Source: Gammaproteobacteria bacterium | Lineage (GTDB): Bacteria > Pseudomonadota > Gammaproteobacteria > Steroidobacterales > Foliamicaceae | Direction of reading: 5' to 3' | DNA length: 52,940 bases | NCBI GenBank assembly: GCA_028821145.1 | Contig: JAPPHC010000024.1 | Location: forward strand, 1 to 52,940 | Shown here: piece by piece, positions 11,399 to 31,526 of the stretch | Numbering within the stretch: the stretch's first letter is position 1 | Layout: the number at the start of each line of letters is the position of its first letter | Notes under the pieces: generated by a model | Seen by the model: only the letters and a program-made list of their open reading frames with translations | Database searches by the model: none | Told to the model about the DNA's origin: nothing | Made by a program: the position numbers and the translations under genes

Positions 11399-11758
11399 AA
11401 CTTTTGAAAAAATGAATGACTTGCGCGCGTTCTTTCGTGTAGAATCGTGCCAACGAGACCAAATGATCCTGGATTTCCTTATGGGATTCCGGCGATCGGG
11501 GGGGAAGATGCAACACTCACTAGGCCACGGCCGGTTAGTCGGGTGAAGCGGCAAACCGGTGTGATCGATTTGGGGGCCCCGTTCCGGGGAAGTGTGGATT
11601 CACTCATAGATTCGCCTATACATCGGAAAGGGGTCTGCCCTATAATTCGCCCGATGGCTTGCTTGACAGGTCACGGAGTTATACTATTGCGTCATTCCGC
11701 CCGGGAGGGCTCGACCACATTTCAACCAATTGAACTTGCTCGGTAAGGAGGCAGGCTC
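11399..11758 (+). promoter_or_regulatory. 360-nt leader of giant surface protein A with candidate promoters
   Basis: No convincing gene lies here. The best promoter-like site is ATGACT (11416-11421), an 18-bp spacer and TAGAAT (11440-11445). A TATAAT at 11641-11646 lacks a good -35, and a perfect TTGACA at 11663-11668 lacks a well-spaced -10. The stretch ends in a strong ribosome binding site, AAGGAGG, 7 nt before the ATG at 11759. The length and lower GC of this leader suggest regulated expression of protein A. Confidence 0.4.
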
Positions 11759-14700
11759 ATGTCTAAGTCAGGAACCGTAATTCAACTCTTGCAGGATCGC
11801 CTTGAAGGGGCGATACGCCGGCGTCGGGAAAACCCATCGCGTGCGGATATTCTTATCCTGCCCGCGCTGGCGCTCGCGCTGGACGCCTGCGGAGGCGGCG
11901 GGTCGCAAAGGCCGACTCCTCCTCCTCCACCACCGCCCCCGCCGCCGCCTCCTCCTCCGCCGCCTCCTCCGGCTGCGACGATCATGGTGGACGCCGAGGG
12001 TTCGGTGGACGAGAACGACGACGGCGCCACGATTGCCGCGGTAACGACCGAGAACTCCACCGAAGTTACGGTCGATGACGACCGCTTCGAGGTCGCAGAC
12101 GGCAACCTCAAATTGAAGGACGGCACCAGCCTCGACTTCGAGGCCGACACCTCACCGATCGAGGTCACCCTTACGGCCGTTTCCGAAGGCGACGACGCCA
12201 CCGCGACAGTGAGCGTGTCCATTAACGACGTTAATGAAGCTCCTTCCATAGACGTGCGCGACGGCGAAGAGGTTCCCGGACACGCCGGCGTGATCTCGAA
12301 TCTGACCATCGACGAGAACGTCATGCGGGCCGACGCACCGCCTCTGGCCCTGATCGAGGTGATGGATCCGGACGCCGCCGATGCGGACATGCTCACCGGC
12401 GATGCTGGCGTGGCAGCCACTTCGGTGAGCGACGATCGCTTTGCGGTGATCCTCGATCCCGAGAACGGCCTGTGGCTGCATCTGGCCGAAGGCGCCAGCC
12501 TCGACCATGAGGCCGAGAGCGAAATCACAGTGACTGTTACCTATACGGACAGCGCCGGCAACACCGCCAGCCAGGACGTCACCGTGATGGTCGCGGACGT
12601 GAACGAATCCCCGGTCGCGGTCGGCATGGTGGACACCGTCACGACGGAGTCCGGAAAGGCCATTGATGTCGAGCTTGACCTGGCCGCCCTGTTCAACGAC
12701 CCGGACGCCGGCGATGCGGACCTACGGTACGAACTGAGCGGCAACCCTTCGTGGCTTTCATTGACGACTGACGGCCGTCTGCGCGGCGAGCCTCCCATCA
12801 CGGGTGCTGAGAGCGCCGCGGCGCACATGGTCACTATCACCGCTACCGATAGCGGCGGAGAAGCGGGGAGTGTCAGCTTCTACGTGATCGTGGACGACGG
12901 CAACGACGAAGTCACCGGCATCAATCTGCTCGACGATAACGGGAACTCCATCGTCGAAGTTGAGGTGGATGAGAGCGACGCCTCCGGCAAGGTGTTTGGC
13001 GAGATTACGGTAGACGACATCGACCATCCCATGCATCCCAACGGCATGCACCAGGTGACCGTAAGCGACCGCCGTTTCGAGATCAGGGAGGTTGACGGCA
13101 AGATGTGGCTGGCGCTGAAGCAGGGCATGTCGCTGGATTACGAAGACGACAACGGCGCCGTGACGGTTCGGGTGACGGCCGTGGACATGAACGGCGAGTT
13201 GAATGACCCGCGCACGGCCGAGAGGACAGGGGAGAAATACAAGGGAACGTCCGAGACCGTTTCATTCACGGTGGTTATCACCGACGAGAACGACGCGCCC
13301 CAGGCCCAGACCATTGGCAACTGGTGGGTCACGGTCGATGACGATCTTGAGGCCAATCAGGTGAGCCAAGGCTCCTGGCTGAAGTTTCAGCTGGAAACCG
13401 AGGACGACGGCGACACGTTTCCCGCCTTCAGGGACCCCGATGGCGATACGCTGACCTATTCCATATCGGGCCCGTCGTGGCTTGAGATTGACGAGGACGA
13501 CGGCACGATCACCAACGCCGATGACGCGGTCCCTCAGCGTGGCGTCTATCGCGTGACCGTGACGGCTACCGACCCCGACGGCGCGTCGGGGTCGGTCACC
13601 TTCAACCTGAACGTGGCCTTGTCCGGCCCGGGCGGTAATTACACCGACGACAACGAGGAGCCCTCCATCAGGGTGACCTCGGAGCCGGGCTACCGGGAGG
13701 GTTCGAACGAGGTGCGGGTGGCCACGTTCACGGTCACCGACCGCGACCAGGACATTCCGGATCATCAGTTCGCCATCTCGAAGGTGGAAATCATCAGCGT
13801 GGTGAACGGCGCGGATGCCGATGGCGCCACTGACGACCGCGATGCGACGTTACGCGACCACGACAGCGACCCTGCGACCCCAGATCGGCTTTGGGTTTCG
13901 GACGCCGCAGACACCGCTCTTGATGGTGCAACAGGCACTCGCGATTCCGCATACGAAGGCTACGCGGGGGCGTTCCGGCTGTCCGACCCGATCAAGAGCG
14001 GCAATACGTGGACCTACCACATCTACGCCCGCGACACGGATAGTCATCCGTTCGTCAGCACGCTTACGCAACTCAACCATGAGGTACTGGACGAGATCGA
14101 GATCACGGTCCGGGTCACCGACGGCGTTGGAGCGACGGATGAAGAGACGATCGATATCGATATCGATGACGTGAACGAAGTGCCGAGCGCTCTAAGATCC
14201 AGTGCAACCAGCACTGCCAGCACTGCTATCAACCTTACTCCTACGACTCTGGGCGTAAACCAGACGGAAGAAAGCAAGGTCGTGCTGTACATCAAGCTGT
14301 TCGACGTGTGGTCCGACGACCGGGACGATGACGACGATCTGAGCTATGGCGCATCCACCTCCGGGTCCTGGATAAAGGTCAGGCACATAGGCGAATGGGG
14401 GGACATCAAGGACGGTCCGGACGGCGATGCGAACACTGCCGACGACCTGGCTTGGAATCCCACCGATACCGCCGCCACCGATGATGCCGCCGGTATCGAC
14501 AACCGTCTTATCGGCACAGCCGGCGATCCGGCCGACGGCGACGTGGTGGCCATCGTGGAGATCGACCGCACCACGCGGGATAGCCAGGGCGACCGTGGCA
14601 GCCTCACGCTCACCGCGCGCGATGATGACAGCGGCAATGGCAGCCGGACGTATAACATCAATCCGGCGGACCAGAATGTAGTGATCGGTGACGGCGCTGT

Positions 14701-17089
14701 GCGGCTTTCTGGCAGCCCCAGGGAGGACGGCACCTTAACGGCCAGCTTCAATGACAACCGGGATCCCGATCTGGGTGGCAGCGCTTCTCCGGCGCTGGTG
14801 CTGTACAGCTGGTACAGGGTGACGGGCGACAATGGCACGCCCGATGACCCGGACGACGATCCTGAAACCCTGATCGCGGTCACCACGGGCAATCAATACA
14901 AGCCTACGCAAACCGATGTGGGCAATAAGATCAAGGTAAGCGTGTCGTACTACGAAGTCTTCGGTGGCCGCATCACCGGCGACGATGGTGGCCAGTACGT
15001 CGCTACAGGCGGGCTCACCGGAATTGATACCGGCGGACTGGAAACTGCTGGACTGGGCGCGACGTCGGGAGGTTCGGCCAGGACTTCGCGGGACGTGTCC
15101 AACACGCCCGACGACGGCCGAGCGGCATTCACCATCACGGCCGATACGGATACATTGCGCGCCGAAGTCTATATTAGGGACGGCGACTATCCGACCGCCG
15201 GTAACCGGCTCGACACCAAGGGCGACGACAGCCTCATAACGAAGTGGCAGTGGCAGGTGTCCGACAACGGGCGCGGCGGCTGGGAAGACGTCGAGGAGGC
15301 CGACACGGACGCGAGCACGCCCGATGTCAACGAGGCGCTCCAGGACAACATCCTCACGCTGCCCAACGGCGACGGCAAGTATTACCGCGTGGTTGTAAGC
15401 TACCTTGAGACCCAGGGCGACACCTCCGCGAATGCGCCGATGGAGGAGATCGCCAGCCAGGCCATCCGCATCGGGAACGTGGACAACAACGCCCTTCCGG
15501 TCAGCGGCGCCGTGCCCACGATCAGCGGAAGCGCCAATCCGGGCGGCACGCTGATCGTCAACGGCTCCGGCATCTCGTCGGTGCAATGGCAGAAGAGGGA
15601 GTTCAACGATACTACCGACACCGAAAGTTACTGGGCGGACATCCCCGGCGCCACCGGCACCAGCCTCAGCCTAACCTCGGCGCACGCGGGCGATGTGCTT
15701 CGGGCGGTGGTCACCTACTCGAGCAGCACGGGCGCCACGCTGGTGGTGCTGGCCGACGGGGATACCGTCACCGCTGATGTTCAGCCGGAAGTGACGGTGG
15801 GGGGAACGGTTGCGACCGTTCGTCCGGTTGCGGTGAAAACCGAGGATGATCCTTACTGGATCGAAACCAGCGTGTCCGGGACGGGGCACGCCCGCTGGGC
15901 GCATATCAATACTGCCGATACCGCCGGGCAAACCGTTTCGCTCATGCACACGGTTCCGCTGGCCAGCCTCTTCCAGGACACGGACACGCCATCCTTTCTG
16001 CTGAGATTCACCGCTGCGGGTGACACCACTACGGGCTTGGACGCGGACGAAGTGGCCGGTAGCACCGGAACTTACGAGTTCGCGAACGACCATAACCTAC
16101 TGGTGCTTGAGCTCGGGAACGGAAAGCTGACCTACGTGAGCGACAAGCTGCGGGGCCACGACGGCACAGGCGGGGACGCCGGTGACGGCCTGGGCAACTG
16201 GCTGACGCTGGACATCACGGCTAACGATCAATTCGGCGCGTCGACCGGCGCCAGTCAAGGCACCGGCGAAGTGCGCGTCCGGATCAACGTGGCGCCAACG
16301 GACATTGACATCGAGCATCCAGATGCGACTGGCAATGATGCCAGTGTCGACGGACGTCTTGTCGTTGCCCGTGGTACTACGGATACCGACGGCACAGTCA
16401 CGGTTGTCAGTACGGACGCCGCCGCGATCGACAGAGTCCACCTGAACGAAAACGTCAGAGCGACGGGCCAGGAGGTTCTGGCTGTTCTCGACGTTCAGGA
16501 CGAGAACCACGCCAGGCACTCGTTCGGCACGCACGAGATTACCGTCAGCGACGACCGCTTCGAGATTACGAACACCGGCGACAGCGTCATCCGTGACGGC
16601 GACGGCGACGGCAGCACCTGGCAATTGCGGCTGAAGCCCGGCGCCTCGTTCGACTTCGAAGCTGACGACCAGGACGGCGATCGGTTCAACGGCATAACGG
16701 AGTTCAAGATCACGCTCATGGCCACCGACGGCGGCGGACTGAGCACGCCCGAGCCGCATCCCGAGTCCTTTCAGTACATCTATCTGGCAACCTGGCTGTA
16801 TCAGCCGATCACGCTGACCGTCCGTATCATCAACGACCCGGACGACGACGCGAGCCGTCCCTTGCCCAGCAACGTGCCCGGCCTGAAGGACGACGAGACC
16901 ACGGATCCGGACGACGAAAGGGAAGACGATACTACGGACGGCGATGTTGACGGCGGTCGCCAGCCTCCGCCTCCGGGAATGTCGCTCGGCATTATCGAGG
17001 ACTTTGTCGACAACATGATGGACTACGGCGATCAAGACCTGCTCGAAGATTTTCTCCTCACAATCGACGACGGGCTTGATATCGTTTAA
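11759..17089 (+). CDS. Giant cadherin-like repeat surface protein A
   Basis: 1776 residues, very acidic. The N-terminus has a basic stretch (RRRR at 20-23), a hydrophobic run (ILILPALALALDAC, 31-44; a weak lipobox) and Gly-Gly-Gly-Gly, then 18 prolines (54-71). Cadherin-like segments follow, each ending in the calcium-site signature: DVNEAP 157, DVNESP 280, DENDAP 509, DVNEVP about 802. The C-terminus carries a low-complexity Asp/Pro stretch, then a conserved block ending LEDFLLTIDDGLDIV. An acidic residue plus hydrophobics at the very end resembles signals used by PrtD-type type I exporters, one of which is encoded 11 kb downstream. Likely a calcium-stiffened adhesin. It is homologous over its whole length to protein B in opposite orientation. 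Function is inferred from domains only. Confidence 0.75.
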   Translation: MSKSGTVIQLLQDRLEGAIRRRRENPSRADILILPALALALDACGGGGSQRPTPPPPPPPPPPPPPPPPPPAATIMVDAEGSVDENDDGATIAAVTTENSTEVTVDDDRFEVADGNLKLKDGTSLDFEADTSPIEVTLTAVSEGDDATATVSVSINDVNEAPSIDVRDGEEVPGHAGVISNLTIDENVMRADAPPLALIEVMDPDAADADMLTGDAGVAATSVSDDRFAVILDPENGLWLHLAEGASLDHEAESEITVTVTYTDSAGNTASQDVTVMVADVNESPVAVGMVDTVTTESGKAIDVELDLAALFNDPDAGDADLRYELSGNPSWLSLTTDGRLRGEPPITGAESAAAHMVTITATDSGGEAGSVSFYVIVDDGNDEVTGINLLDDNGNSIVEVEVDESDASGKVFGEITVDDIDHPMHPNGMHQVTVSDRRFEIREVDGKMWLALKQGMSLDYEDDNGAVTVRVTAVDMNGELNDPRTAERTGEKYKGTSETVSFTVVITDENDAPQAQTIGNWWVTVDDDLEANQVSQGSWLKFQLETEDDGDTFPAFRDPDGDTLTYSISGPSWLEIDEDDGTITNADDAVPQRGVYRVTVTATDPDGASGSVTFNLNVALSGPGGNYTDDNEEPSIRVTSEPGYREGSNEVRVATFTVTDRDQDIPDHQFAISKVEIISVVNGADADGATDDRDATLRDHDSDPATPDRLWVSDAADTALDGATGTRDSAYEGYAGAFRLSDPIKSGNTWTYHIYARDTDSHPFVSTLTQLNHEVLDEIEITVRVTDGVGATDEETIDIDIDDVNEVPSALRSSATSTASTAINLTPTTLGVNQTEESKVVLYIKLFDVWSDDRDDDDDLSYGASTSGSWIKVRHIGEWGDIKDGPDGDANTADDLAWNPTDTAATDDAAGIDNRLIGTAGDPADGDVVAIVEIDRTTRDSQGDRGSLTLTARDDDSGNGSRTYNINPADQNVVIGDGAVRLSGSPREDGTLTASFNDNRDPDLGGSASPALVLYSWYRVTGDNGTPDDPDDDPETLIAVTTGNQYKPTQTDVGNKIKVSVSYYEVFGGRITGDDGGQYVATGGLTGIDTGGLETAGLGATSGGSARTSRDVSNTPDDGRAAFTITADTDTLRAEVYIRDGDYPTAGNRLDTKGDDSLITKWQWQVSDNGRGGWEDVEEADTDASTPDVNEALQDNILTLPNGDGKYYRVVVSYLETQGDTSANAPMEEIASQAIRIGNVDNNALPVSGAVPTISGSANPGGTLIVNGSGISSVQWQKREFNDTTDTESYWADIPGATGTSLSLTSAHAGDVLRAVVTYSSSTGATLVVLADGDTVTADVQPEVTVGGTVATVRPVAVKTEDDPYWIETSVSGTGHARWAHINTADTAGQTVSLMHTVPLASLFQDTDTPSFLLRFTAAGDTTTGLDADEVAGSTGTYEFANDHNLLVLELGNGKLTYVSDKLRGHDGTGGDAGDGLGNWLTLDITANDQFGASTGASQGTGEVRVRINVAPTDIDIEHPDATGNDASVDGRLVVARGTTDTDGTVTVVSTDAAAIDRVHLNENVRATGQEVLAVLDVQDENHARHSFGTHEITVSDDRFEITNTGDSVIRDGDGDGSTWQLRLKPGASFDFEADDQDGDRFNGITEFKITLMATDGGGLSTPEPHPESFQYIYLATWLYQPITLTVRIINDPDDDASRPLPSNVPGLKDDETTDPDDEREDDTTDGDVDGGRQPPPPGMSLGIIEDFVDNMMDYGDQDLLEDFLLTIDDGLDIV

Positions 17090-17146
17090 TCCACCCCCGC
17101 AACTTTACGTTGCAGCGAGGCGGGCCAAAAGCCCGCCTCGTTTTTT
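17027..17146 (+). repeat. Left arm of the 120-bp inverted repeat (3' end of A plus terminator)
   Basis: The first 57 bp (17027-17083) match the reverse complement of 17697-17753 exactly. The rest, including stop codon, a GCAAC/GTTGC mini-hairpin and the terminator stem, differs at only a few positions, mostly in loops. Confidence 0.9.
17116..17146 (+). terminator. Intrinsic terminator of gene A
   Basis: CGAGGCGGGC (17116-17125), loop CAAAA, GCCCGCCTCG (17131-17140), then six T. A perfect 10-bp stem, 27 nt after the stop codon of A. Confidence 0.92.
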
Positions 17147-17171
17147 GTACGCCCCTCGCCAACTTATTTCG

Positions 17172-17201
17172 TTGACTCCGCAGGCGCGCGTGCGCTATAA
17201 C
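17172..17201 (+). promoter_or_regulatory. Promoter of the first DUF1640 gene
   Basis: TTGACT (17172-17177), an 18-bp spacer and TATAAC (17196-17201). The same layout (TTGACA, 18 bp, TATAAA) precedes the paralogue at 27315. Confidence 0.7.
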
Positions 17202-17259
17202 CACGATCGGAAGGAACGGCCCGCCTTGCCGCTCCAGGGAATTCGTAAGGAGTACGAAA

Positions 17260-17592
17260 ATGGCGCAATTGTTATTCGATGCAGTCTCGGCGACCCGGCG
17301 CCTGAAGGACGCAGGGTTCGCTGCTAAGCAGGCGGAGGCGGTAGTGCAGAACGTGACCCAGGCAAACAGTCTGACTCTGCAGATGGTTCAGAACCTGGCC
17401 GACCTCAAGGCCCACGTGACCGAAAACATGGTCACAAGAGCCTACCTTGCCGAAACGCTAAGTCAGTACGACCTCAAGAACATGGTCACCAAAGCGGATT
17501 TTGAAAAGGAATTCGCGCGGCTATACCGCAATCTTTTGTTCGGTACTCTGGGCTGTGTGACCCTGATCATCGCCGCCATAAGATCTCTCTGA
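17260..17592 (+). CDS. Small DUF1640 / CCDC90-like coiled-coil membrane protein
   Basis: 110 residues. The N-terminus LLFDAVSATRRLKDAGFAAKQAEAVV is the DUF1640 signature (Phe-Asp, helix, Gly-Phe, Gln-Ala-Glu-Ala). A coiled coil follows (about 35-90), with LKAHVTENMVT and LKNMVTKADFEKEF as degenerate repeats. A single C-terminal membrane helix (LLFGTLGCVTLIIAAI) ends the protein. Bacterial members have no established role; mitochondrial relatives (MCUR1/CCDC90) scaffold membrane complexes. TAAGGAG lies 7 nt before the ATG. The gene sits between the convergent giant genes A and B, inside their inverted repeat, with its own promoter. A paralogue stands upstream of the type I secretion operon. 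Confidence 0.8.
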   Translation: MAQLLFDAVSATRRLKDAGFAAKQAEAVVQNVTQANSLTLQMVQNLADLKAHVTENMVTRAYLAETLSQYDLKNMVTKADFEKEFARLYRNLLFGTLGCVTLIIAAIRSL

Positions 17593-17631
17593 ACTACAGC
17601 GTGCTCGCCCGTCTCGACGCTATCCTGGCGT

Positions 17632-17664
17632 AAAAAAAACGAGGCGGGCATGAAGCCCGCCTCG
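17632..17664 (-). terminator. Intrinsic terminator of gene B
   Basis: On the minus strand CGAGGCGGGC (17664-17655), loop TTCAT, GCCCGCCTCG (17649-17640), then eight T (17639-17632). The stem is identical to that of gene A; only the loop differs. On the plus strand it lacks a T-run for the DUF1640 gene but could still stall polymerase. Confidence 0.9.
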
Positions 17665-17753
17665 CTGCAACATAAAGTTGCGGGGGTGGATTACAGGATA
17701 TCAAGCCCGTCGTCGATTGTGAGGAGAAAATCTTCGAGCAGGTCTTGATCGCC
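17632..17753 (-). repeat. Right arm of the 120-bp inverted repeat (3' end of B plus terminator)
   Basis: Partner of 17027-17146. Exact identity covers 17697-17753. Together the arms flank 485 bp holding the DUF1640 gene, so recombination between them would flip that gene. Confidence 0.9.
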
Positions 17754-20700
17754 TTGATCCATGTTGTCGATGAAGTCCTCGATGATTCCACCGAGCGACA
17801 TTCCCGGAGGCGGAGTCCCGCCGCCGCCGTCGGTGTCGTCATCACCGCCGTCCGTCTGGTCGTTGTTGTCGTCATCGTCGGCGTCGTCCTTCAGTCCGGG
17901 TGTTTCCGGGCCCCTCGGTATCGGTCGATTGTCCCTTGCGTCGTCCTCGATCGTGACAATCAACTGGATGGGCCGATGCAACGCAATCGCGGGGAGTCCC
18001 TCGAACAGCCAACTGGGTGAGTTTGGCACAGGCGTGCTCAGCCCACCGCCATCGGTGGCGGTGAATGTGAGCACGATTTGAACGCCATTGCTCGGGTTGC
18101 CGTCCATATCATCCGCTTCGTAGTCGAATGTCGCGCCTCTAACAACATGCAATTCCCAGGTGCTTCCATCGCTGTCTGGATCCCGCACGTCATCGTCGCC
18201 ACCTGTCTTCCTGATCACGAAACGATCGTCGCCGGAAACGGTGACCTCGTGGGTGCCGAACCCGTGGCGAACAGCATTCTCGTCCTGCACGTCAATTACG
18301 GCCAGCACTTCTCTGCCCGTATGCTCGACATTCTCCATAATGGAGATCTCCGGAAGATTGGTCGTGCCATACGCGGTTCGGTACAGAACCTCGCCGTTGG
18401 TAGCAGAAGTATCAGCCTGGAGTGCGATTGGGGCATTGTTGGCATCATTATTGTCGTCAGGATCAGTGCTAGTCGCTTCCGCATCCTGCCGGAACGTAAT
18501 GGTCGTAGGCGCCACGTTGATCCGCAGGCTCACCTCAGCAGAGTCCCCCGCTCCCGCGTTGGTACTACCGCTCAAAGTGTCGTTCGACGTTATGTTCAGC
18601 TTCAGCACATTACCCGCGCCGTCGTCGGCGTTGCCATCATGGCCCCGATACTTGTCGCTCAGGTAAGTAAGCTTTCCGCTTCTGGCATCGAAAACCAGCA
18701 CGCCGCCGCCATTGGCATCAGTTTGTTGATACACATACGTAGTACCGGTTGGGGTTGGAGTGGCTACCAACTCGACATCGGGATCGCCGGGCCGTTCCAG
18801 ATTCGTCGCCGTAAAGCGCAGGAGGAAGCTCGGAGTGTCAGGATCCTGGAAGAGACTGGTCAGCGGAACCGTATCCTCGATCGTTGCGTTGTGGTTCGCG
18901 CGTGATACGGCAAGGAAGCCGTGTCCCGTTCCCCCAACGCTGCCCTCGATTTCGTAATCGCTCTCCCGGACCGGACGTTGGTCTGAGGGGGTCCCCCCAA
19001 TCACATTACCAGTAGTGTCGGCGTTAGTAACATCGACAGTCGTTACCGCCGTCACGCCCGGATTGTCCGGATCCCGGCTCATGTACGAAACCACCGCGCG
19101 AATATTTTCCCCGGCATGCGCCTGGGTCAGGCGCAGATCACCGGTGGCGCCGGGAATATCTACCCAATTGCCGCTCTCCTGTATCTGCCACTGCACCGAG
19201 AACGTCGTGTTCGGAACTTCCACGCTCAACGTGCCGCCCGGATTGGGGCTTCCGTTAATTATGGCCGTGGCAAGCGGCGGAGCGCCCGTGGCGTCGCGAA
19301 CATCCGACACCTGGATCGGATCGCTGACGACCCTTTCCCTGGCCGCATTGTCGCCGGTATCAGCGTCATAGGTGGCTACCGCACGGTAGTACATCCCTTC
19401 GCCGTCATCCAGACTCAATGTCGTCACGCCGGTCGCGGCGTCGAAGGTGACATCATCGTCATCTACCGCTGTCCAGCCGCCGCGTCCATTCGTGGAGACT
19501 TCGAAGGAAATGATCGCGTCATCGGGAATACCATCAGGAGTGGTATCGGTAGGATCCTCATTATCAACAAGATCAGTCGGATCAGGCACCACCGTGCCTC
19601 CAGAAGCAGGAACGAAGGGATAGTCGCCGTCCACAATACGCAGATCGGTGTTCGCGACCGTCAGGGTGTCCGAATTGGCGAGGATGGTGATATCCGCTGT
19701 CCCGCGATCCGGCGTGTTGCTGACCGCCCGTGAAGTGGTCGCCACGTTGATAGCAGGAGAATCCGCGGTAACAGTCGGAGTTGCAGTAAATGCCGTTCCT
19801 ACGAGTTGGCCTCGCAACGAGACACTCTCAGCATCCTGCGAGCCATCATTGGTTGAGGACGTAATGGGAACGTCGTAGTAGTTGACGACCACCCGGATCT
19901 CGTGGCCGACATCCCCCTGGACCGGAGTGTAGGTATTGCTGGTGCCATGAGCTCTTACGACGACGGTGTCGTCCGACAAGTCATCCGCATCGCTGCCGTC
20001 ATCTGTCACCCTGTACCAGGTGTATAACACCAGTGCAGGCTCGGCGCTGCCGGCCAGATCGGGATCCCTGTTGTCGTTGAAGTTCGCCGTTAGCCTGCTG
20101 CCTTCCCGGACGCTGCCGCTAAGAGTGACGGCGCCTTCCTCAATGGCAACGTTCTCATCGATGATCGAAACGTTGTATGTTCTTTCGCCCGTTTCGCCTC
20201 TGCCGCGATCATCGGTGGCTGACAGCGTAAAGCTGCCGCGATCGCCTTGGTTGTTGCGTTCCGTACGGTCGATCGCGACGATGACCACCATTTGATCCGG
20301 CTCAGTTCCAGTGCCGGGCTCATCGTTGTTGGTGCCAATGATCACCGTATCGTATGTGGTCTGGTCACCGGCTGGGCCAATGGCGACTGTCGTGCCATCA
20401 CTAGTAGGCCAGGGAATGTTGTCGTCAGTCTCGGCTGCATTACCATCCCGACCAGGCGCGATGTCGCTCCAGTCGGCCGGCCCGCGCCAGATGTCGACCC
20501 ACGAACCCGAAGTTTCAGCATCGAATTCCAACTGGTTGTCGCTGTCCGAATCGTCAGTCCAGAGATCTCCCAGTTTGATGTACAACAACTTGACGTTGGT
20601 TGCGTCCTGCTCAACTCGTAAGTCGGTACTCTGGACAAGCGCTGTTGTGTCAGTGCTACTTGCCGCCGGTGCCCTCGGTGCTTCATCCGTGTCCGCAATC

Positions 20701-23063
20701 CCAAAATCGAACTGTGCATCGTCATCTTCCAATGTCGTGACGCCGTCCGAGATCTCGAGCGTGACTTCGATTTCATCCACCGACTCGTAGTTCAGCAACC
20801 GGGTCGTGTCGATATACGGACTGGGGTTCGTGTCGACAGCTTCAAGGTGGAAGGTCCAGCCGATGCTGCTCGGGGTCGGATCGGACAACTGCAACGCCGC
20901 GGCGTAGCCGGGGCCACCCGTAGTCGCGTCGCCGTCGTCATTGGTCCAGAGGCGCATCGGCGTTGCCCGCTGGCCGTCAGAATTAAGACCATCGTTCGCG
21001 GTTGTATCGCCACCGGTACCTGAATCGTCGCCATCGTGGTCCACCAACGTCACGTTGTTCGGGTCTGTGATTCTGGGTCCTGTGGGGTTAGCCGGATCCG
21101 GAATGCCGTCCGGATTCGTAATGGCCTTGATTCTCACCGTCTTCAGCGCGAATTGGTGATCGGGAATGTTCTGGTCTTCATCTTCTACCCGGAACGTGAG
21201 AACCCTCCGTTCACCCGAACCCTCGCGGTACTCCGGCCTGGAGGTAAGAACATTGAGATCAGGACCTTCGTTATCCTTCGTAAGGGTGCCGTCGTCCGCC
21301 GCATCGGACCAGGCCACGTTCAGATTGAAGGACTTGGATGCCGATTGGCCGTCCTCATCGGTGGCCGTAACGGTGACGCGATAGACGCCCCGGACGGGCT
21401 TCACGTCCTTAACGTTAGTGATATGGCCCGTTTCCTCGTCGATCTGCAGCCAGGAGGGTCCGGATATGGAATAGGTCAGGCTGTCGCCCGCTCTAAGGTC
21501 CTGGTCCGTAAAGGCCGGGAACCTGTCTCCATCGTCCTGGTTTTCCAGCTCAAAGCTCACCCAATCGCCGTCATCGATGTCCCCGGCGTCGAGACTGTCG
21601 TCTATGGTGGCCCACCAGTTGCCGATCGTGCCGCCTCGCGGCGCGTCGTTCACGTCGTTGATGACGACGGCGAACGTAACCGGATCAGACCGGAATCCTT
21701 CGTAATCGCCGTCCTCGTCCCTTTCGCCGTTTCTGTCTATGGCGCGGAGCGTCACCAATACTTCGCCGCTCTCCCTTTCGCGATCCAGGGATTCCCCTTC
21801 CTTCAGCGCCAGCCACTTGCGGCCGTCCTCGTGCCTGATCTCGAAACGGTCGTCATCCACGGTGATCAGGTGCTGGCCATAGGGATGATGCGGACTGTCG
21901 ATATCGTCCACCACGATCTCGCCCAGCACCACGCCGGAAGCGTCGCCTTCGGTTACCTCAACTTCGATGACGGACTGGCCGTCGTCGATCAGGTTGATGC
22001 CGGTGGGCCTGTCGTTGCCGTCGTCCACGACCACGTAGAAGCTCACGGTCGCCGTCTCGCCGCCGTTGTCGGTGGCGGTAATGGTGACCATGTGCTCGGC
22101 AGCGCTTTCGGCGCCAGTCGTGGGCGGCGTGCCCTGCAGGATGCCGGTCATGGAACCGTCGTCACCGTGTCGGGTGACCAGTTCCAGCCAGTCCGGTCCG
22201 CCGCTCAGCGTCCAACTGTCGATCGTGTCGCTCCCCTCAGGGTCGCTGAACAGTGACATGAGATCGACCTCATGGCTCAGCGCCTTACCGGCTTCCGCGG
22301 CAACGTTGCCGACTTCGCCGACCGCGACCGGAGCTTCGTTCACGTCGGTGACCATCACGGTTACGTCCTGACTGGCCGTGTTGCCGGCGCTGTCCGTATA
22401 GGTAACGGTGACCGTGATTTCGCTGCCGGCCTCATGATCGAGGCTGGCGCCGGCCGCGAGATGCAGCCACAGACCGTCCTCGGGGTCGAGGATCACCGCA
22501 AAGCGGTCGTCACTCACCGAGGTAGCGGCCACGCCGGCGTCGCCGGTGAGCATGTCCGCATCGGCAGCGTCAGGGTCCATCACCTCAATAAGGGCCAGGG
22601 GTGGAGCGTCGTCGCGTGTGGCGTTCTCGGCGATAGTCAGGCTCGAGATCACGCCCGGATGTCCGGGGACCTCCTCGCCGTCGCGCACGTCGATGGAGGG
22701 GTCCTCGTTCACGTCGTTGACCGTGATGCTCACCGTAGCCGTGGCGTCGTCGCCATCGGAGACGGCGGTAAGGGTGACCTCGATCATTCCGCCTTCGACG
22801 TTCTCGAAGTCGAGGCTCATGCCGTCCTTCAGTTTCAGGTTCCCGTCGGCGACTTCGAAGTAGTCGTTGTCAACCGTAACTTCGGTTGAGTTCTCGGTCG
22901 TTACCGCGGCAATGGTTGCGCCGTCGTCGTTCTCATCCACCGAGGCTTCAGCGTCCACCATGATCGTCGCTGCCGGAGGAGGTGGCGGCGGCGGAGGCGG
23001 CGGCGGAGGGGGCGGTGGTGGAGGAGGAGGAGATGTCGGCCAATTAGTATCAATTAGTTTCAT
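17691..23063 (-). CDS. Giant cadherin-like repeat protein B, 5'-truncated paralogue of A
   Basis: 1790 residues from ATG 23063. From the 19-proline tract onward the order of segments matches A: first cadherin-like unit ending DVNEDP, second ending DVNEAP, later DVNDAP, then Ig-like/strand-rich parts and the C-terminal block ending LTIDDGLDIL. The first two units and the last block are about 85-100% identical to A at DNA level; the middle has drifted much further. The N-terminal hydrophobic segment and GGGG of A are missing. Homology stops at GGCCGAC (23041-23035), and the residues before the prolines (MKLIDTNWPTS) come from AT-rich foreign DNA. No Shine-Dalgarno sequence precedes the ATG and the frame is open upstream without a better start. 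B may be silent, a donor for recombination, or a secreted form if export needs only the C-terminus. Confidence 0.7.
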   Translation of the reverse strand: MKLIDTNWPTSPPPPPPPPPPPPPPPPPPPAATIMVDAEASVDENDDGATIAAVTTENSTEVTVDNDYFEVADGNLKLKDGMSLDFENVEGGMIEVTLTAVSDGDDATATVSITVNDVNEDPSIDVRDGEEVPGHPGVISSLTIAENATRDDAPPLALIEVMDPDAADADMLTGDAGVAATSVSDDRFAVILDPEDGLWLHLAAGASLDHEAGSEITVTVTYTDSAGNTASQDVTVMVTDVNEAPVAVGEVGNVAAEAGKALSHEVDLMSLFSDPEGSDTIDSWTLSGGPDWLELVTRHGDDGSMTGILQGTPPTTGAESAAEHMVTITATDNGGETATVSFYVVVDDGNDRPTGINLIDDGQSVIEVEVTEGDASGVVLGEIVVDDIDSPHHPYGQHLITVDDDRFEIRHEDGRKWLALKEGESLDRERESGEVLVTLRAIDRNGERDEDGDYEGFRSDPVTFAVVINDVNDAPRGGTIGNWWATIDDSLDAGDIDDGDWVSFELENQDDGDRFPAFTDQDLRAGDSLTYSISGPSWLQIDEETGHITNVKDVKPVRGVYRVTVTATDEDGQSASKSFNLNVAWSDAADDGTLTKDNEGPDLNVLTSRPEYREGSGERRVLTFRVEDEDQNIPDHQFALKTVRIKAITNPDGIPDPANPTGPRITDPNNVTLVDHDGDDSGTGGDTTANDGLNSDGQRATPMRLWTNDDGDATTGGPGYAAALQLSDPTPSSIGWTFHLEAVDTNPSPYIDTTRLLNYESVDEIEVTLEISDGVTTLEDDDAQFDFGIADTDEAPRAPAASSTDTTALVQSTDLRVEQDATNVKLLYIKLGDLWTDDSDSDNQLEFDAETSGSWVDIWRGPADWSDIAPGRDGNAAETDDNIPWPTSDGTTVAIGPAGDQTTYDTVIIGTNNDEPGTGTEPDQMVVIVAIDRTERNNQGDRGSFTLSATDDRGRGETGERTYNVSIIDENVAIEEGAVTLSGSVREGSRLTANFNDNRDPDLAGSAEPALVLYTWYRVTDDGSDADDLSDDTVVVRAHGTSNTYTPVQGDVGHEIRVVVNYYDVPITSSTNDGSQDAESVSLRGQLVGTAFTATPTVTADSPAINVATTSRAVSNTPDRGTADITILANSDTLTVANTDLRIVDGDYPFVPASGGTVVPDPTDLVDNEDPTDTTPDGIPDDAIISFEVSTNGRGGWTAVDDDDVTFDAATGVTTLSLDDGEGMYYRAVATYDADTGDNAARERVVSDPIQVSDVRDATGAPPLATAIINGSPNPGGTLSVEVPNTTFSVQWQIQESGNWVDIPGATGDLRLTQAHAGENIRAVVSYMSRDPDNPGVTAVTTVDVTNADTTGNVIGGTPSDQRPVRESDYEIEGSVGGTGHGFLAVSRANHNATIEDTVPLTSLFQDPDTPSFLLRFTATNLERPGDPDVELVATPTPTGTTYVYQQTDANGGGVLVFDARSGKLTYLSDKYRGHDGNADDGAGNVLKLNITSNDTLSGSTNAGAGDSAEVSLRINVAPTTITFRQDAEATSTDPDDNNDANNAPIALQADTSATNGEVLYRTAYGTTNLPEISIMENVEHTGREVLAVIDVQDENAVRHGFGTHEVTVSGDDRFVIRKTGGDDDVRDPDSDGSTWELHVVRGATFDYEADDMDGNPSNGVQIVLTFTATDGGGLSTPVPNSPSWLFEGLPAIALHRPIQLIVTIEDDARDNRPIPRGPETPGLKDDADDDDNNDQTDGGDDDTDGGGGTPPPGMSLGGIIEDFIDNMDQGDQDLLEDFLLTIDDGLDIL

Positions 23064-23090
23064 AAAGTGCCATAAAGAACTATAAGACGC
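23041..23090 (+). repeat. AT-rich 10-bp phased repeats beside the integrase gene
   Basis: Five consecutive 10-mers: CAATTAGTAT, CAATTAGTTT, CATAAAGTGC, CATAAAGAAC, TATAAGACGC. Repeats spaced at one helical turn in an AT-rich island, 100 bp upstream of a tyrosine integrase and exactly at the break of gene B, resemble integrase arm-binding sites of an attachment region. A core site cannot be defined from one end. Confidence 0.45.
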
Positions 23091-23185
23091 TGATATAATT
23101 GAATAATGCCGATTCCGGGGTTTCTTAAGGCCCCTTTTGGTGTCAGACAGTCCTTCGATTTCTGTAATAGCGGAAGTGATAATTC

Positions 23186-24370
23186 ATGAAACGGCCGAAC
23201 CGGCTTTCGACGACGTTCGTGAATAAGATCAGCCGGCCCGGCCGGTATGGCGATGGCCGGGGCGGTTTCGGGCTGAGTCTCCTGGTCAAGCCGAAACGCG
23301 CGGGCGGACTGTCCAAGACCTGGTCGCAGCGGGTGATGCTGTCAGGCAGGGCCCTCAATATCGGGCTGGGCGCCTATCCGATCGTGACGCTGGCGGAAGC
23401 CCGCGAGCGGGCGCTGAACAACCGCCGCGCGATCGCGAAAGGCGAGGATCCGCGCAGAAAGCCGCGCTTTGTTCCCACGTTTGCGGATGCGCTGGAAGAG
23501 ACCATCCGGATTCAGTCCCAGGCATGGAAGGAGGGAGGCAAGAGCGAACGCCAGTGGCGTTCGAGCATGCGCAATTACGCGCTGTCTCAATTGGGGAAGT
23601 TGCCGGTCGATTCGATTGAGCCGCGGGACGTGATGAACGTGTTGCTGCCCATCTGGAGCACAAAGCCGGAATCGGCGCGGCGCATTCGCCAGCGCATCGG
23701 CGCGGTAATGAAGTGGGCGGTCGCGCAGGGCTACCGTACCGACAATCCCGCGGGAGACGCGCTCGGGGCGGCGCTGCCGAAGATCTCGAACGCCCAGACG
23801 CACTACCGCGCCCTTCCTTACGGCCAGGTTGCCGCTGCCCTGCACAAGGCCAGGGCCGCGAACGCCTACCCGGCGAAGGTGCTTTGCCTCGAGTTTCTTA
23901 CCCTTTGCGCGGTGCGTAACAGCGAAGCCCGGCTTGCGCTGTGGGATGAAGTCGACGAGGAGAGTGCCACCTGGACAATACCGGCCGGGAGGATGAAGGC
24001 CAATCGCGAGCATCGCGTGCCCTTGTCGAGCCGGGCGCTCGAGGTGCTGGCGCAGGCGCGGGAGTTGCGGGACCACACGGGGTATTTGTTTCCGTCCTCA
24101 CGGGGCCGCCCCATGGGTGAAAACACCCTTGCCAGGTTCTGCCGCGAACTGAACCTGGGCTGCGTTCCGCACGGCATGCGCAGCAGTTTCCGGGACTGGT
24201 CCGCCGAGTGTACGGACGCTCCGCGCGAGGTCTGCGAAATCGCGCTCGCGCACGTCAATTCGGACCGCGTGGAGCGGGCCTACCGGCGCACCGATCTCTT
24301 CGAGCGCCGGCGGACGCTGATGGAGCAATGGGCGCTGTTTCTGAACGGCCCGGCCGGCGCTGACTCCTAG
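23186..24370 (+). CDS. P4-type tyrosine integrase
   Basis: 394 residues, full length. The N-terminal DUF4102-like domain (about 1-95: LGAYPIVTLAEARERALNNR, KGEDPRRK) precedes a SAM-like core-binding domain and the catalytic domain. Visible catalytic elements: Arg in LCAVRNSEARLALWDEVD, HRVPLS, the HGMRSSFRDW box, HVNSDRVERAYRR with the nucleophilic Tyr in AYRRTDLF. Such enzymes insert and excise genomic islands, often at tRNA genes; no tRNA is visible here. Its stop codon overlaps that of the kinase gene on the other strand (shared CTAG). With the AlpA-like gene 2.4 kb away it marks this part as mobile or once mobile. Confidence 0.9.
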   Translation: MKRPNRLSTTFVNKISRPGRYGDGRGGFGLSLLVKPKRAGGLSKTWSQRVMLSGRALNIGLGAYPIVTLAEARERALNNRRAIAKGEDPRRKPRFVPTFADALEETIRIQSQAWKEGGKSERQWRSSMRNYALSQLGKLPVDSIEPRDVMNVLLPIWSTKPESARRIRQRIGAVMKWAVAQGYRTDNPAGDALGAALPKISNAQTHYRALPYGQVAAALHKARAANAYPAKVLCLEFLTLCAVRNSEARLALWDEVDEESATWTIPAGRMKANREHRVPLSSRALEVLAQARELRDHTGYLFPSSRGRPMGENTLARFCRELNLGCVPHGMRSSFRDWSAECTDAPREVCEIALAHVNSDRVERAYRRTDLFERRRTLMEQWALFLNGPAGADS

Positions 24371-27314: not shown

Positions 27315-27875
27315 ATGCCTCAGGTTTTATTCGATACCCATGCAGCGGCAAGGAAACTGGAAAAGGCCGGCCATACGGCGCAACAGGCCGAGGCAGTGGT
27401 GGAAGTCGTGAGTGAAGCTACGGAATTCGGTGCGCGGATGCAGCACGATCTGGAGCGCATCAAGTATGTGGTGGAAAACCACATGGCCACGAAGGACGAC
27501 CTCGCCGAACATCGGGCGGCCACGCAGAACGACATCGCGGAACTTCGGATGGCCACGAAGGAGGACATCGCCGAGCTCCGGATGTCCACGAAGGAAGATA
27601 TTGCCGAACTTCGCACGGAAATTCGCACGGAATTCGCGAAAATACCGCAGATGGTTCGCGAGGGTGTGAGGCAGGAGACCCCGGTGGTACAGCTGCGGTC
27701 GGCGATGGCCGCCGGTTCGTTAACGTTCTCCCTGGGCGGGTTTGCCGTGATGGTGTTCACGAATGAACGCCTTGCCGCGATGGCGCTGGAGCACGGGTCC
27801 GTCATAGGGCTGATGATGATTATGGCGGGCTCGGCGGTCATGATGTTCCTTGCCTTGGCGGGCAGATCCGGATAG
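27315..27875 (+). CDS. DUF1640 / CCDC90-like coiled-coil membrane protein
   Basis: 186 residues. The N-terminal signature VLFDTHAAARKLEKAGHTAQQAEAVVEVV matches the protein at 17260. A long coiled coil follows, with four tandem 11-residue units of the type MATKEDIAELR, then a basic/acidic stretch and two C-terminal membrane segments (about 132-152 and 160-182). AAGGAGG sits 6 nt before the ATG. It lies 145 nt upstream of the type I secretion operon. Function unknown; the second copy next to the giant surface proteins suggests a shared role in surface-protein export or envelope organisation, which is inference only. Confidence 0.83.
   Translation: MPQVLFDTHAAARKLEKAGHTAQQAEAVVEVVSEATEFGARMQHDLERIKYVVENHMATKDDLAEHRAATQNDIAELRMATKEDIAELRMSTKEDIAELRTEIRTEFAKIPQMVREGVRQETPVVQLRSAMAAGSLTFSLGGFAVMVFTNERLAAMALEHGSVIGLMMIMAGSAVMMFLALAGRSG
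27483..27614 (+). repeat. Four in-frame 33-bp tandem repeats in the coiled coil
   Basis: Units encode MATKDDLAEHR, AATQNDIAELR, MATKEDIAELR and MSTKEDIAELR. An 11-residue period fits a right-handed or hendecad coiled coil. Copy number may vary between strains. Confidence 0.9.
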
Positions 27876-28347: not shown

Positions 28348-30138
28348 GTGAGCAAGCAGCCCGAAAAATCCAACGACGCGGAACGTCCCGCAACGCCGCT
28401 TCGCGCCGCGCTGAGCAAATACCGCGGCGGCTTTATCGCCATCGCGGTGTTCAGTTCGCTGGTCAACATCCTGATGCTGGTCTCGCCGGTGTACATGCTG
28501 CAGATGTACGACCGCGTGCTCACCAGCGCCAGCGCGGAAACGCTGCTGATGCTCACGCTCATCGCCGTGTTCCTGCTGGCCTGCTTCGGCCTGCTCGAAT
28601 GGGTGCGCCAGCGCCTGATGCAGCGCATCGGCCTGGCGCTCGGTCTGAACATGGCCAACGACGTGCTCACCAGCGCCTTCCGCAGCAACCTGGCCAGCCA
28701 GGGGCAGGCCGCCAGCCAGCCGGTGCGGGACATCGACAACATCCGCCAGTTCATGGGCAGCCCCACGATATTTGCGTTCTTCGACATTCCCTGGACGCCC
28801 ATATTCACCGCCGTCATATTCATGTTCCACCCGCTGATGGGCGCGGTGGCCGTGTTCGGCGCAGTCGTGATATTCACGCTGGGCATCCTCGCGGAGTTTC
28901 GTTCCCGCCTGCCCATGCGGGCCGCGGCCATGGAGGGACTTCAGTCGCATCAGCTCCTGGAGTCCTCGATGCGCAACTCCGATGCGCTGAAGGCCATGGG
29001 CATGTTCGACGGCCTGATCGGCCGATGGCAGGGGCGGCACCGCCGTTCGGCGTCGTTCCAATCGGCCGCCTCGGGACGCCTGAGCGTCCTGCTTTCCGCC
29101 ACCAAGGCGTTCCGCTTCTCGGTGCAGGTGGGCATGCTCGGCACCGGCGCCTACCTGGTGCTGGCCGGCGACCTTACCCCCGGCATGATGATCGCCGGCT
29201 CCATCATCATGGGCCGGGCGCTGGCGCCGATCGAGCAGGGCATCGGCGCCTGGCGCGGTTTCGTGGGCGCCCGGCAGGCCTGGCGGCGCGTCAACGCGCT
29301 GCTGGAGAATTTCGGCGACGAAGACCGGGGTCCCGGAACGGAACTGCCGCGTCCGGAAGGCAAGGTCGAGGTCGAAGACGTCACGGTCGTGCCTCCGGGG
29401 GCTGAAGTACCGGTGGTGAAGGGCGTCAATCTCACGCTTCAGCCGGGCAGCATTACCGGGCTGATCGGCCCCAGCGGCAGCGGCAAGTCGTCGCTGGCCA
29501 GCGTGATGATGGGCGTGTGGCAGCCGGTGGAAGGCGCGGTGCGGCTCGACGGCGCGGAGATCGATGGCTGGCCGGACCACCTGCGCCTCAAGCACTTCGG
29601 CTACCTCCCGCAGACCGTGGAACTCTTCGACGGCACCGTGGCCGAGAACATATCGCGCCTGGAGGAGCCGGACGACGAAGGCGTGATCGGCGCCGCCCAG
29701 CGCGCCGGCTGCCACGAGGTGATCATGCGCCTGGCGAAGAACTACACGACGCCGATCGGCGCCGGCGGCCGCGGACTTTCCGCCGGCCAGCGCCAGCGCG
29801 TGGCTCTGGCCCGGGCTCTGTACGGCGATCCGGCTTACGTGGTGCTGGACGAGCCGGACTCCAACCTCGACAGCGAGGGGCAGGAAGTGCTGGGCAAGGT
29901 GCTGGAAGCCCTGAAGGAAAACCGCATTACAACTGTGCTGATCACCCACAACGTGCGCCTGCTGAGGCGCGTGGACCAGATCGGCGTGATGCAGGAGGGC
30001 CAGATCGTGAACTTCGGTCCGCGTGACGAGGTGCTGGGGCAGTTCGGCGCCGCGAAACCCCGCGCCGCTCCACCCGCACAGGCTCCCGCGGCCCCCGCCG
30101 CCCCGGCGCGGCCAATACAGGTGAAATACACGCAATGA
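28348..30138 (+). CDS. Type I secretion ABC exporter, PrtD type
   Basis: 596 residues, GTG start. About six membrane helices (25-300) precede one nucleotide-binding domain: Walker A GPSGSGKS 374-381, signature LSAGQ 477-481, Walker B VVLDEPD with Asp501/Glu502, and the switch His in LITHN. There is no N-terminal C39 peptidase or C39-like domain, which places it with PrtD/AprD exporters of unprocessed proteins with C-terminal signals. The C-terminus is a Pro/Ala-rich tail. It overlaps the adaptor start (ATGA). Likely substrates are the giant proteins A and/or B, but none is encoded within the operon itself. Confidence 0.92.
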   Translation: MSKQPEKSNDAERPATPLRAALSKYRGGFIAIAVFSSLVNILMLVSPVYMLQMYDRVLTSASAETLLMLTLIAVFLLACFGLLEWVRQRLMQRIGLALGLNMANDVLTSAFRSNLASQGQAASQPVRDIDNIRQFMGSPTIFAFFDIPWTPIFTAVIFMFHPLMGAVAVFGAVVIFTLGILAEFRSRLPMRAAAMEGLQSHQLLESSMRNSDALKAMGMFDGLIGRWQGRHRRSASFQSAASGRLSVLLSATKAFRFSVQVGMLGTGAYLVLAGDLTPGMMIAGSIIMGRALAPIEQGIGAWRGFVGARQAWRRVNALLENFGDEDRGPGTELPRPEGKVEVEDVTVVPPGAEVPVVKGVNLTLQPGSITGLIGPSGSGKSSLASVMMGVWQPVEGAVRLDGAEIDGWPDHLRLKHFGYLPQTVELFDGTVAENISRLEEPDDEGVIGAAQRAGCHEVIMRLAKNYTTPIGAGGRGLSAGQRQRVALARALYGDPAYVVLDEPDSNLDSEGQEVLGKVLEALKENRITTVLITHNVRLLRRVDQIGVMQEGQIVNFGPRDEVLGQFGAAKPRAAPPAQAPAAPAAPARPIQVKYTQ

Positions 30139-31526
30139 ACATTCAAGTGCAGTCGGCGCCCGACAACTGGCGAACCAGGGTGCTGGCGTTTCTGACGCGC
30201 TACCTGGAGACGCCGCCGAAGATCGAGGACAACGAGTCGATCGATCCGCTCAAGGACCGCGCGATGTGGATCGGCGGGACCGTCGTGAGCGTGGCCCTGG
30301 GCGCCTTCATCCTGTGGGGTTCGCTGGCCCCGCTGGCGCAGGGCGTGGTGGCCATGGGCCTGGTGGAGGTGGACGGCGAGAACAAGACCGTCCAGCACCT
30401 GGAAGGGGGCATCGTCAAGATCCTGCACGTGCGCGAAGGCGACAATGTGGCCGCTGGCGAGCCGCTGCTGGAACTCGACGACACCAAGCCGCGGGCCGAG
30501 CAGGAATTGCTCGAAGCCCGCTACTACAGCGCGCTGGCCCAGATCGACCGGCTCAATGCCGAACTGTATGGCCGCGAGGAAGTGGTTTTCTCTTCGGAAT
30601 TCGAGAACCTGCGGGGCGACCCCAGGATCGAGGAAATCATCCAGGCGCAGATCGACCTGTTCAAGGAGCGCCGAGGGCAGCACGCCGGTGAAATCGAAAT
30701 CCTCAATGGCAGGGTGGAGCAGCTCGGCGAACAGGTGAACGGGCTGACGGCCCGCCGCGACGCCGCGCAGCAGGAGCAGGAGTTGCTGGAGAAGGACGTG
30801 GCCGCGTTGGCCAGTCTGGCCGAACGCCAGCTCGTTTCGGAGGACCAATTGACCCAGCGGCGTCTGAACCTGGCGCAGACGCGCGGCCAGGTGGGGCAGA
30901 TCATCGCCGAAATCGCCGAGGCGCAACTGTCCATCGGCGAGACCCGCCAGCGGATCATCCAGTTGCAGAACGATTACCGCACGGATCTTTCCACCAATCT
31001 GACCGAATCGCAGAACCTCTACTTCGAGACCGGCGACCGCCTGTTCGCGGTGCGCGACCAGGTGGCCCGCACCCGTATCGTGGCGCCCCTGGAAGGCAAG
31101 GTGATCAACATGCAGGTGCACACCGTGGGCGGCGTGGTGCCCCCCGCGCAGCCGATCATGAACATCGTGCCGGAGGACGACAAGCTGATCGTCGAGGCCA
31201 AGGTCATGCCCACCGACAGGGACAACGTGAACGTCGGACAGGAGGCGCGCCTGCGGATCACGCCGCTGAACCAGCGGGCGACGCCCGAATTGCTCGGCGA
31301 AGTCGTGCTCGTTTCCGCCGACATCCTGACCGACGAGGACATCCAGCAGCAGTATTACATCGCGCGCATCAGCATTCCCGACTCGGAGTACGTCAAGCTG
31401 GGCGACAAGGACATCCGGCCCGGGTTCCCTGTGGAAGTGACCTTCAGCGGAGGCAAGCGCACGATGATCCAATACCTGGCGGAGCCCCTGTTCGGCACCC
31501 TCCGCCGAGCCATGAAAGAAGAATGA
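30135..31526 (+). CDS. HlyD-family type I secretion adaptor
   Basis: 463 residues: a cytoplasmic N-terminus, one membrane helix (about 42-62, SVALGAFILWGSLAPLAQG), a lipoyl half (VQHLEGGIVKILHVREGD), a long coiled coil (about 115-300), the second lipoyl half (RIVAPLEGKVINMQVHTVGG) and a beta-barrel end. It spans the periplasm between the ABC exporter and the TolC-like channel. It overlaps both neighbours by 4 nt, so the three proteins are made together. Confidence 0.92.
   Translation: MNIQVQSAPDNWRTRVLAFLTRYLETPPKIEDNESIDPLKDRAMWIGGTVVSVALGAFILWGSLAPLAQGVVAMGLVEVDGENKTVQHLEGGIVKILHVREGDNVAAGEPLLELDDTKPRAEQELLEARYYSALAQIDRLNAELYGREEVVFSSEFENLRGDPRIEEIIQAQIDLFKERRGQHAGEIEILNGRVEQLGEQVNGLTARRDAAQQEQELLEKDVAALASLAERQLVSEDQLTQRRLNLAQTRGQVGQIIAEIAEAQLSIGETRQRIIQLQNDYRTDLSTNLTESQNLYFETGDRLFAVRDQVARTRIVAPLEGKVINMQVHTVGGVVPPAQPIMNIVPEDDKLIVEAKVMPTDRDNVNVGQEARLRITPLNQRATPELLGEVVLVSADILTDEDIQQQYYIARISIPDSEYVKLGDKDIRPGFPVEVTFSGGKRTMIQYLAEPLFGTLRRAMKEE

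Follow-up and report, generated by a model that had tools for sequence, protein, structure and literature searches.

A candidate leader-body switch of a giant surface protein by DNA inversion beside a phage-type integrase in an uncultured gammaproteobacterial group

The sapA S-layer locus of Campylobacter fetus combines opposed homologous genes with conserved 5' ends, a single promoter and PrtDEF-type secretion genes, and is varied by inversion, with the promoter and secretion genes lying inside the invertible segment and the recombination being RecA-dependent. In the shufflon, the tyrosine recombinase Rci stands beside an array of alternative gene ends that are joined to a constant part; the sites are short repeats and the segments are short. 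For the vsa locus of Mycoplasma pulmonis, the excerpt of the paper cited here describes a site-specific inversion that brings the promoter, the ribosome site and an initial coding segment of 714 nt in front of silent 3' parts, the gene for the tyrosine recombinase HvsR lying near by (PMC2268961). The same excerpt describes, for the vpma locus of Mycoplasma agalactiae, a single promoter, several silent surface genes and an adjacent tyrosine recombinase, Xer1, with putative recombination sites before the start codons (-1 to -72) and whole genes being switched (PMC2268961).

The locus reported here lies in the window, by which we mean the whole stretch of 52,940 nt that was analysed. We consider it likely that a giant surface protein is switched there between bodies joined to one leader, by DNA inversion, probably through a neighbouring integrase, together with homologous exchange. 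Its nearest described relative would be vsa and, as far as the excerpt allows the comparison, the locus would, like vsa, link promoter, ribosome site and a 5' coding segment to a silent 3' segment, and it likewise has a recombinase gene close by. The present locus differs from vsa as excerpted in its gammaproteobacterial MAG group, in its P4-type integrase with an arm-binding domain, in its 5-kb bodies, in its polyproline junction, spaced arm-like sites and adjoining type I secretion genes, and in that its inversion is a prediction. With vpma, on the same footing, it shares one promoter, several silent genes and a neighbouring tyrosine recombinase, but here the junction is intragenic and follows a constant leader. 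Conserved 5' ends, opposed homologues, a single promoter and secretion genes recur as in sapA, although the promoter and secretion genes here are outside the segment and an integrase is present; with the shufflon it has in common a tyrosine recombinase beside alternative gene parts for one constant part, the alternatives here being entire protein bodies of about 1700 aa. We thus offer it as a proposal that the locus works like vsa and sap and may belong with them. No published description of this locus was found by title or abstract start among the matches listed. The features of the two genes are as follows:

11617..11646, + strand: sigma-70-like promoter match (10/12 matches, spacer 18), upstream of the leader
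11663..11685, + strand: TTGACA...TATACT block, a possible promoter element, read by eye and with non-canonical spacing
11745..11751, + strand: Shine-Dalgarno AAGGAGG of the expressed gene, followed by ATG
11759-17089, + strand: gene A, ORF of 1776 aa
11759..11926, + strand: constant leader, aa 1-56, with a basic stretch and hydrophobic LILPALALALDACGGGG, lipobox-like
11917..11971, + strand: polyproline linker of A
11972..17089, + strand: body cassette A in the expressed position, with cadherin-like/He_PIG domains
16946..17089, + strand: conserved C-terminus of A, a putative type I secretion signal judged by conservation between A, B and relatives
17114..17142, + strand: terminator of A
17260..17592, + strand: 110-aa gene within the predicted invertible segment, with relatives at this locus in other genomes
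17638..17666, - strand: terminator of B
17691-23063, - strand: gene B, ORF of 1790 aa
17691..17831, - strand: conserved C-terminus of B
17691..22973, - strand: body cassette B in the predicted silent position
22974..23030, - strand: polyproline tract of B

The first-pass annotation had described A and B as two giant homologous convergent genes, alike at their ends and different in the middle. Both open reading frames exist, the genes are convergent paralogues with similar ends and a drifted middle, and the profile of identity along them, which that annotation had proposed as a check, is not flat. In a codon alignment, A and B share 80-87% of their nucleotides over some 240 codons starting at the polyproline; the subsequent windows, as far as codon 1747 of A, are at 40-79% (mostly 50-70%), and the final, short window is at 92%, with 86% at third positions; the block of aa 80-240 is 86-90% identical at the amino acid level. 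By Pfam, cadherin-like and He_PIG domains are found in both bodies, and the 110-aa gene between them has no Pfam match. The terminators of A and B are near copies and, with the 3' end, fall in an inverted arm of 141 nt at 91%. Two further inverted arms, of 504 nt at 84% and 227 nt at 88%, would suit a real switch in which the inverted 5' kilobases recombine through the general, RecA-type homologous machinery, as at the C. fetus sap locus, with the integrase incidental or just a helper. We regard this alternative as unlikely, and it should be considered that the longest exact match between A and B near the 5' end is just 29 nt.

That only A has leader signals, also claimed at first pass, was borne out. 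A has the AAGGAGG, a hydrophobic LILPALALALDAC segment in its leader and the sigma-70-like match, one of 2 sites found by the pattern scan of the leader region (shuffles gave a mean of 0.4), and the same kind of scan over 22950-23300 gave no match for B. The expression site thus consists of a promoter, by pattern match only, and a constant 5' part, and B is a homologous gene without them whose in-frame ATG (23063) has no obvious ribosome site; as A/B homology starts at GGCCGAC, this listed ATG falls in non-homologous DNA. The reading of B as an independently expressed gene was rejected on the lack of a promoter match and of an obvious ribosome site, and on the stop codons that stand immediately before the polyproline in three cassettes of relatives (G001-2, G001-3 and G005C20m). 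The leader is present in all nine same-genus genomes and its region is conserved in the relatives, where the TTGACA...TATACT block is kept with small changes; this block is absent at the second leader of G006 (C10, locus L050), which has a different upstream sequence.

In the mechanism that we propose, a single invariable expression site, made up of promoter, ribosome site and a leader of 56 residues (11617-11926), would be connected through the polyproline linker with one of several bodies of 5 kb, and the remaining bodies, having no leader, would be silent. As the leader-side and the integrase-side bodies face each other, recombination between their junctions would invert about 11.1 kb, and the leader would be fused in frame to the other body. 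Indeed, an in-silico inversion of the window between 11910-11916 and 23035-23041 flips 11118 bp, yields an open leader-B frame of 1833 aa and leaves the body of A behind the integrase-side flank. The integrase (23186-24370) would be the most likely enzyme and would bind arm-type sites near its own start, with the cut presumably at or near GGCCGAC/polyproline. As a second process, the bodies would be shuffled further by homologous exchange within their first kilobase.

A tblastn search of the fetched contigs with the window genes revealed a recurring order in the genus: ychF and the promoter-leader, then the cassettes, then the integrase and the type I secretion genes. The complete locus lies on one contig only in the window and in G001; five genomes (G002, G003, G005, G006 and G007) have the ychF-leader half and the integrase-transporter half on separate contigs, and G008 has ychF and the leader alone. 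In G004, the locus is on one contig and has a single leader-body gene, with no integrase orthologue and no arm motif; the lone cassette there (G004:C1:1601498-1610422, loci L008 and L029) has a longer open frame of 2979 aa with many cadherin-like units. In G001 there are three bodies: the first follows the leader, the second is silent and direct, and the third is silent, inverted and adjoins the integrase. Contig G005:C20 also has three, of which two are truncated at contig ends, and on G007:C15 two bodies face each other from both contig ends. The cassettes without a leader retain long open frames, which argues against another alternative, namely that there is no present switching and that the locus is a surface gene that was duplicated and kept alike through gene conversion, with a leftover phage integrase and contigs broken by the low complexity of the polyproline. 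We find that alternative unlikely as well.

Several other observations were made at these loci. Relatives of two small genes of the window, 17260-17592 and 27315-27875 (the latter CCDC90-like by Pfam), recur at the locus in several genomes. On G005:C20, orphan conserved C-termini with terminator-like sequence stand without bodies at 5931, 6631 and 22082 (loci L026 and L027) and are possibly scars of deleted cassettes. On G005:C28 (L064), the integrase-side junction is directly fused to a cassette C-terminus, which may be what a deletion between two proline-rich stretches would leave; this junction and the second leader of G006 are thus additional copies of pieces of the system at other places. 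The secretion genes of the window are as follows:

28348..30138, + strand: type I secretion ABC transporter, PrtD subfamily (672 bits, cut-off 510)
30135..31526, + strand: type I secretion HlyD-family adaptor (353 bits, cut-off 209)
31523..32860, + strand: outer membrane efflux (TolC-like) protein (Pfam OEP above its cut-off, TIGR01844 below its cut-off)

With PrtD/HlyD/TolC-type genes adjoining and a conserved C-terminus, the giant surface protein of A and B is probably type I-secreted. It should be noted that the hydrophobic, cysteine-bearing leader looks like a lipoprotein signal, whereas the adjoining transporter suggests type I export, and the export and surface location of the A and B proteins should be read as predictions.

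Evidence that bodies change place comes from comparing the window with G001. The body of A, which stands behind the leader in the window, is 80% identical to the silent, inverted, integrase-side cassette of G001, and that of B is 68% identical to the middle silent cassette of G001, while the remaining pairs among the five bodies of the window and G001 are at 46-53%; the expressed body of G001 is 63% identical to one of the G005 bodies. In the tree of the middle region, these three pairs (A with G001 integrase-side, B with G001 middle, and G001 expressed with G005) are each supported at 100/100. Orthologous bodies thus occupy exchanged positions in these two relatives, the arrangement that the first-pass annotation had suggested looking for, and this counts against a locus that does not switch. 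The 5' ends of the bodies are mosaic. In the tree of aa 80-240, the AU test rejects a clade of A and its G001 orthologue (p 1.6e-50, for clades that were picked after viewing the identity profile), the expressed and integrase-side bodies of G001 pair at 100/100, and two G005 bodies pair that do not pair mid-gene. For a clade of A, B and G001-2, there is neither support nor rejection (p 0.49). As the 5' and middle trees conflict, bodies swap 5' parts within G001 and G005, the genomes in which such blocks are clearest; exchange in the A gene of the window is the weaker case, as the rejection of A with its orthologue may reflect replacement in G001 alone. Mosaic blocks of this kind are what a RecA-type switch would leave. 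They need crossovers past the polyproline and so are not products of an enzyme that cuts at one site.

The integrase gene starts 145 bp past the junction of B and is divergent from B:

23186..24370, + strand: P4-type tyrosine integrase, with Arm-DNA-bind_3, Phage_int_M and Phage_integrase domains

The three domains (PF13356, PF22022 and PF00589) are all above the Pfam cut-offs, and we take this set to be that of the P4 type. The R, K, HxxR, H and Y residues, which we take to be the catalytic residues, are retained in all eight orthologues, and pairwise dN/dS among these is 0.12-0.28; the integrase is thus under purifying selection and has an intact active site, which is not what one would expect of a phage leftover at a locus that no longer switches. 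The eight orthologues (that of the window and seven at 67-91% identity to it) are found in 7 of the 9 same-genus genomes; the best match in G004 is at 45%, G008 has no integrase match, and the integrase of G003 faces no cassette. Among 246 genomes of the order, the same 7 alone matched at E<=1e-95, two more distant genes of G003 and G006 passing as well, and none of the 237 order genomes outside the genus did. Other integrases of the genus, at 45-53% and in 7 loci (a set that leaves out L064, an orthologue, and L071, a partial match at 49%), do not stand beside a polyproline tract of at least 7 codons within the fetched flanks. In IMG/VR, 12 loci have relatives of the integrase at 32-40%, and there is no relative of the leader or of the body of A. 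An integrated phage or genomic island was rejected, as no tRNA and no phage structural label are found and the same neighbours recur in relatives: the window has no tRNA or tmRNA gene, and PHROGs searches of six window proteins gave, the integrase aside, no structural, packaging or lysis label and several families of unknown function. A hybrid histidine kinase with a response regulator and a DNA-binding domain (24367-26727) adjoins the integrase in the window and in G006 and may regulate the locus; its relative at 52-53% in G002 and G007 lies near the secretion genes instead.

The sites found at the junctions of the window are as follows:

11910..11916, + strand: GGCCGAC on the leader side, probable crossover region, common to the junction of B
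23035..23041, - strand: GGCCGAC on the silent side, probable crossover region
23083..23097, - strand: TATATCAGNNNCTTA box, lying 84 nt away from the arm-like motif
23164..23181, - strand: arm-like motif TATCACTTCCGCTATTAC, the sole match in the genome assembly of the window

The word shared before the polyproline by the leader and integrase sides of the window is GGCCGAC, a length of 7 that is reached by 52 of 2000 letter shuffles; in G006 the shared word is of 8 nt (8/2000 shuffles), in G007 of 8 nt (11/2000) and in G002 of 14 nt (0/2000). One conserved crossover word was rejected as a general feature, as the leader and silent sides share such a word in G000, G006, G002 and G007 and lack it in G001, G003 and G005, and as the leader-side word GGCCKACTCCNCC is common, with 22 matches in the nine genomes and a similar number for its reversed control, and is not special genome-wide. 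In G001, G003 and G005, the leader and silent sites have no notable shared word before the polyproline, and the crossover core is thus undefined there, an absence that would fit general recombination between the 5' kilobases.

Upstream of the silent junctions stands the arm motif TATYACTTNNGSTATYRC, with 10 matches in the nine genomes of the genus, all 10 at silent or integrase junctions; as the motif was derived from the junction sequences themselves, matches there are partly by construction and the weight rests on its absence elsewhere. The reversed motif has no match in the nine genomes, and the motif itself has 3 matches in the 237 other genomes of the order (the reversed control has 4 in all 246). 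Two of the junctions with the motif, G001:C36:24023 and G005:C20:12771, have no integrase gene, which is difficult to reconcile with a homogenised duplicate lying by chance beside an old integrase, and the latter site was found by the search, outside the junctions previously inspected. The motif occurs in 6 of the 9 genomes and the integrase in those 6 and G003, where near matches (16/18) are found at two junctions. That integrase and arm motif stand together at the silent junction and are distributed over almost the same set of genomes speaks against general recombination as the sole route. In favor of a locus that has stopped switching, the junctions G005:C36, which continues into other sequence, and G003:C24 look degenerate.

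A TATATCAGNNNCTTA-like box is found at 7 of the 11 junctions examined, with the nearer arm 84 nt away in 6 of them and 95 nt in the seventh, although it should be considered that the junctions are related to one another and are not independent observations; the TATATCAG box is missing at the other four (G002, G007 and two of G003). When searched genome-wide with one mismatch, the longer form of the box gave 6 matches, all 6 at these junctions. A second arm, with 15 to 18 of 18 matches, lies 80 nt from the first in G001-3, G005C20m, G005C36 and G003C17, 78 nt in G005C28 and 123 nt in G007. Such fixed spacing suggests a protein-DNA complex like that of a phage attachment site. Taken with the integrase, the regularly spaced sites at the silent junction of the window and its relatives point to site-specific recombination at the leader/polyproline junction, although present-day inversion, the integrase as its agent and the exact cut site should be regarded as predictions.

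Contigs of the relatives break at this locus. Leaders are at a contig end in 7 of 10 cases (G002, G003, G005, G006 twice, G007 and G008), and a contig end lies at most 325 nt upstream of 4 of the 8 integrases (G002, G005:C36, G006 and G007). The breaks were downgraded as proof of inversion, as GC-rich low-complexity tracts could cause them: polyproline tracts are difficult for assemblers, runs of polyC occur at or near contig starts as well, as one would expect without switching, and the contig of G008 stops inside the leader, before the junction. The breaks are thus merely supportive of mixed orientations.

An 11-kb inversion by homologous recombination, giving two forms of one surface protein, had been put forward at first pass. 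The part in which the body of B comes to lie behind the signals of A is supported, given the inverted orthologue in G001, the in-frame fusion and the recombinant 5' parts; the plain homologous route is at best half the story, given the integrase and the spaced sites. Alternative bodies are also present as claimed, but the three cassettes in G001 and on G005:C20 exceed two forms and make this a cassette repertoire and not merely a two-state flip. A more speculative extension of the leader-body switch, to which we give limited credence, is an integron-like platform, in which a domesticated phage integrase would serve one leader-bearing attachment site, mobile bodies with their own arm-plus-polyproline sites would be inverted, excised as circles or recaptured, and lineages would exchange their outward-facing proteins.

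If the leader-body switch is true, an uncultured group of Gammaproteobacteria varies a giant surface protein by programmed inversion, with an integrase recruited from phage-type elements, which would also account for several assemblies of the genus breaking at this locus. Judging by their record names, the relatives presumably derive from sponge metagenomes, and if they do come from sponges, existing reads would allow tests of surface variation in symbionts of animals.
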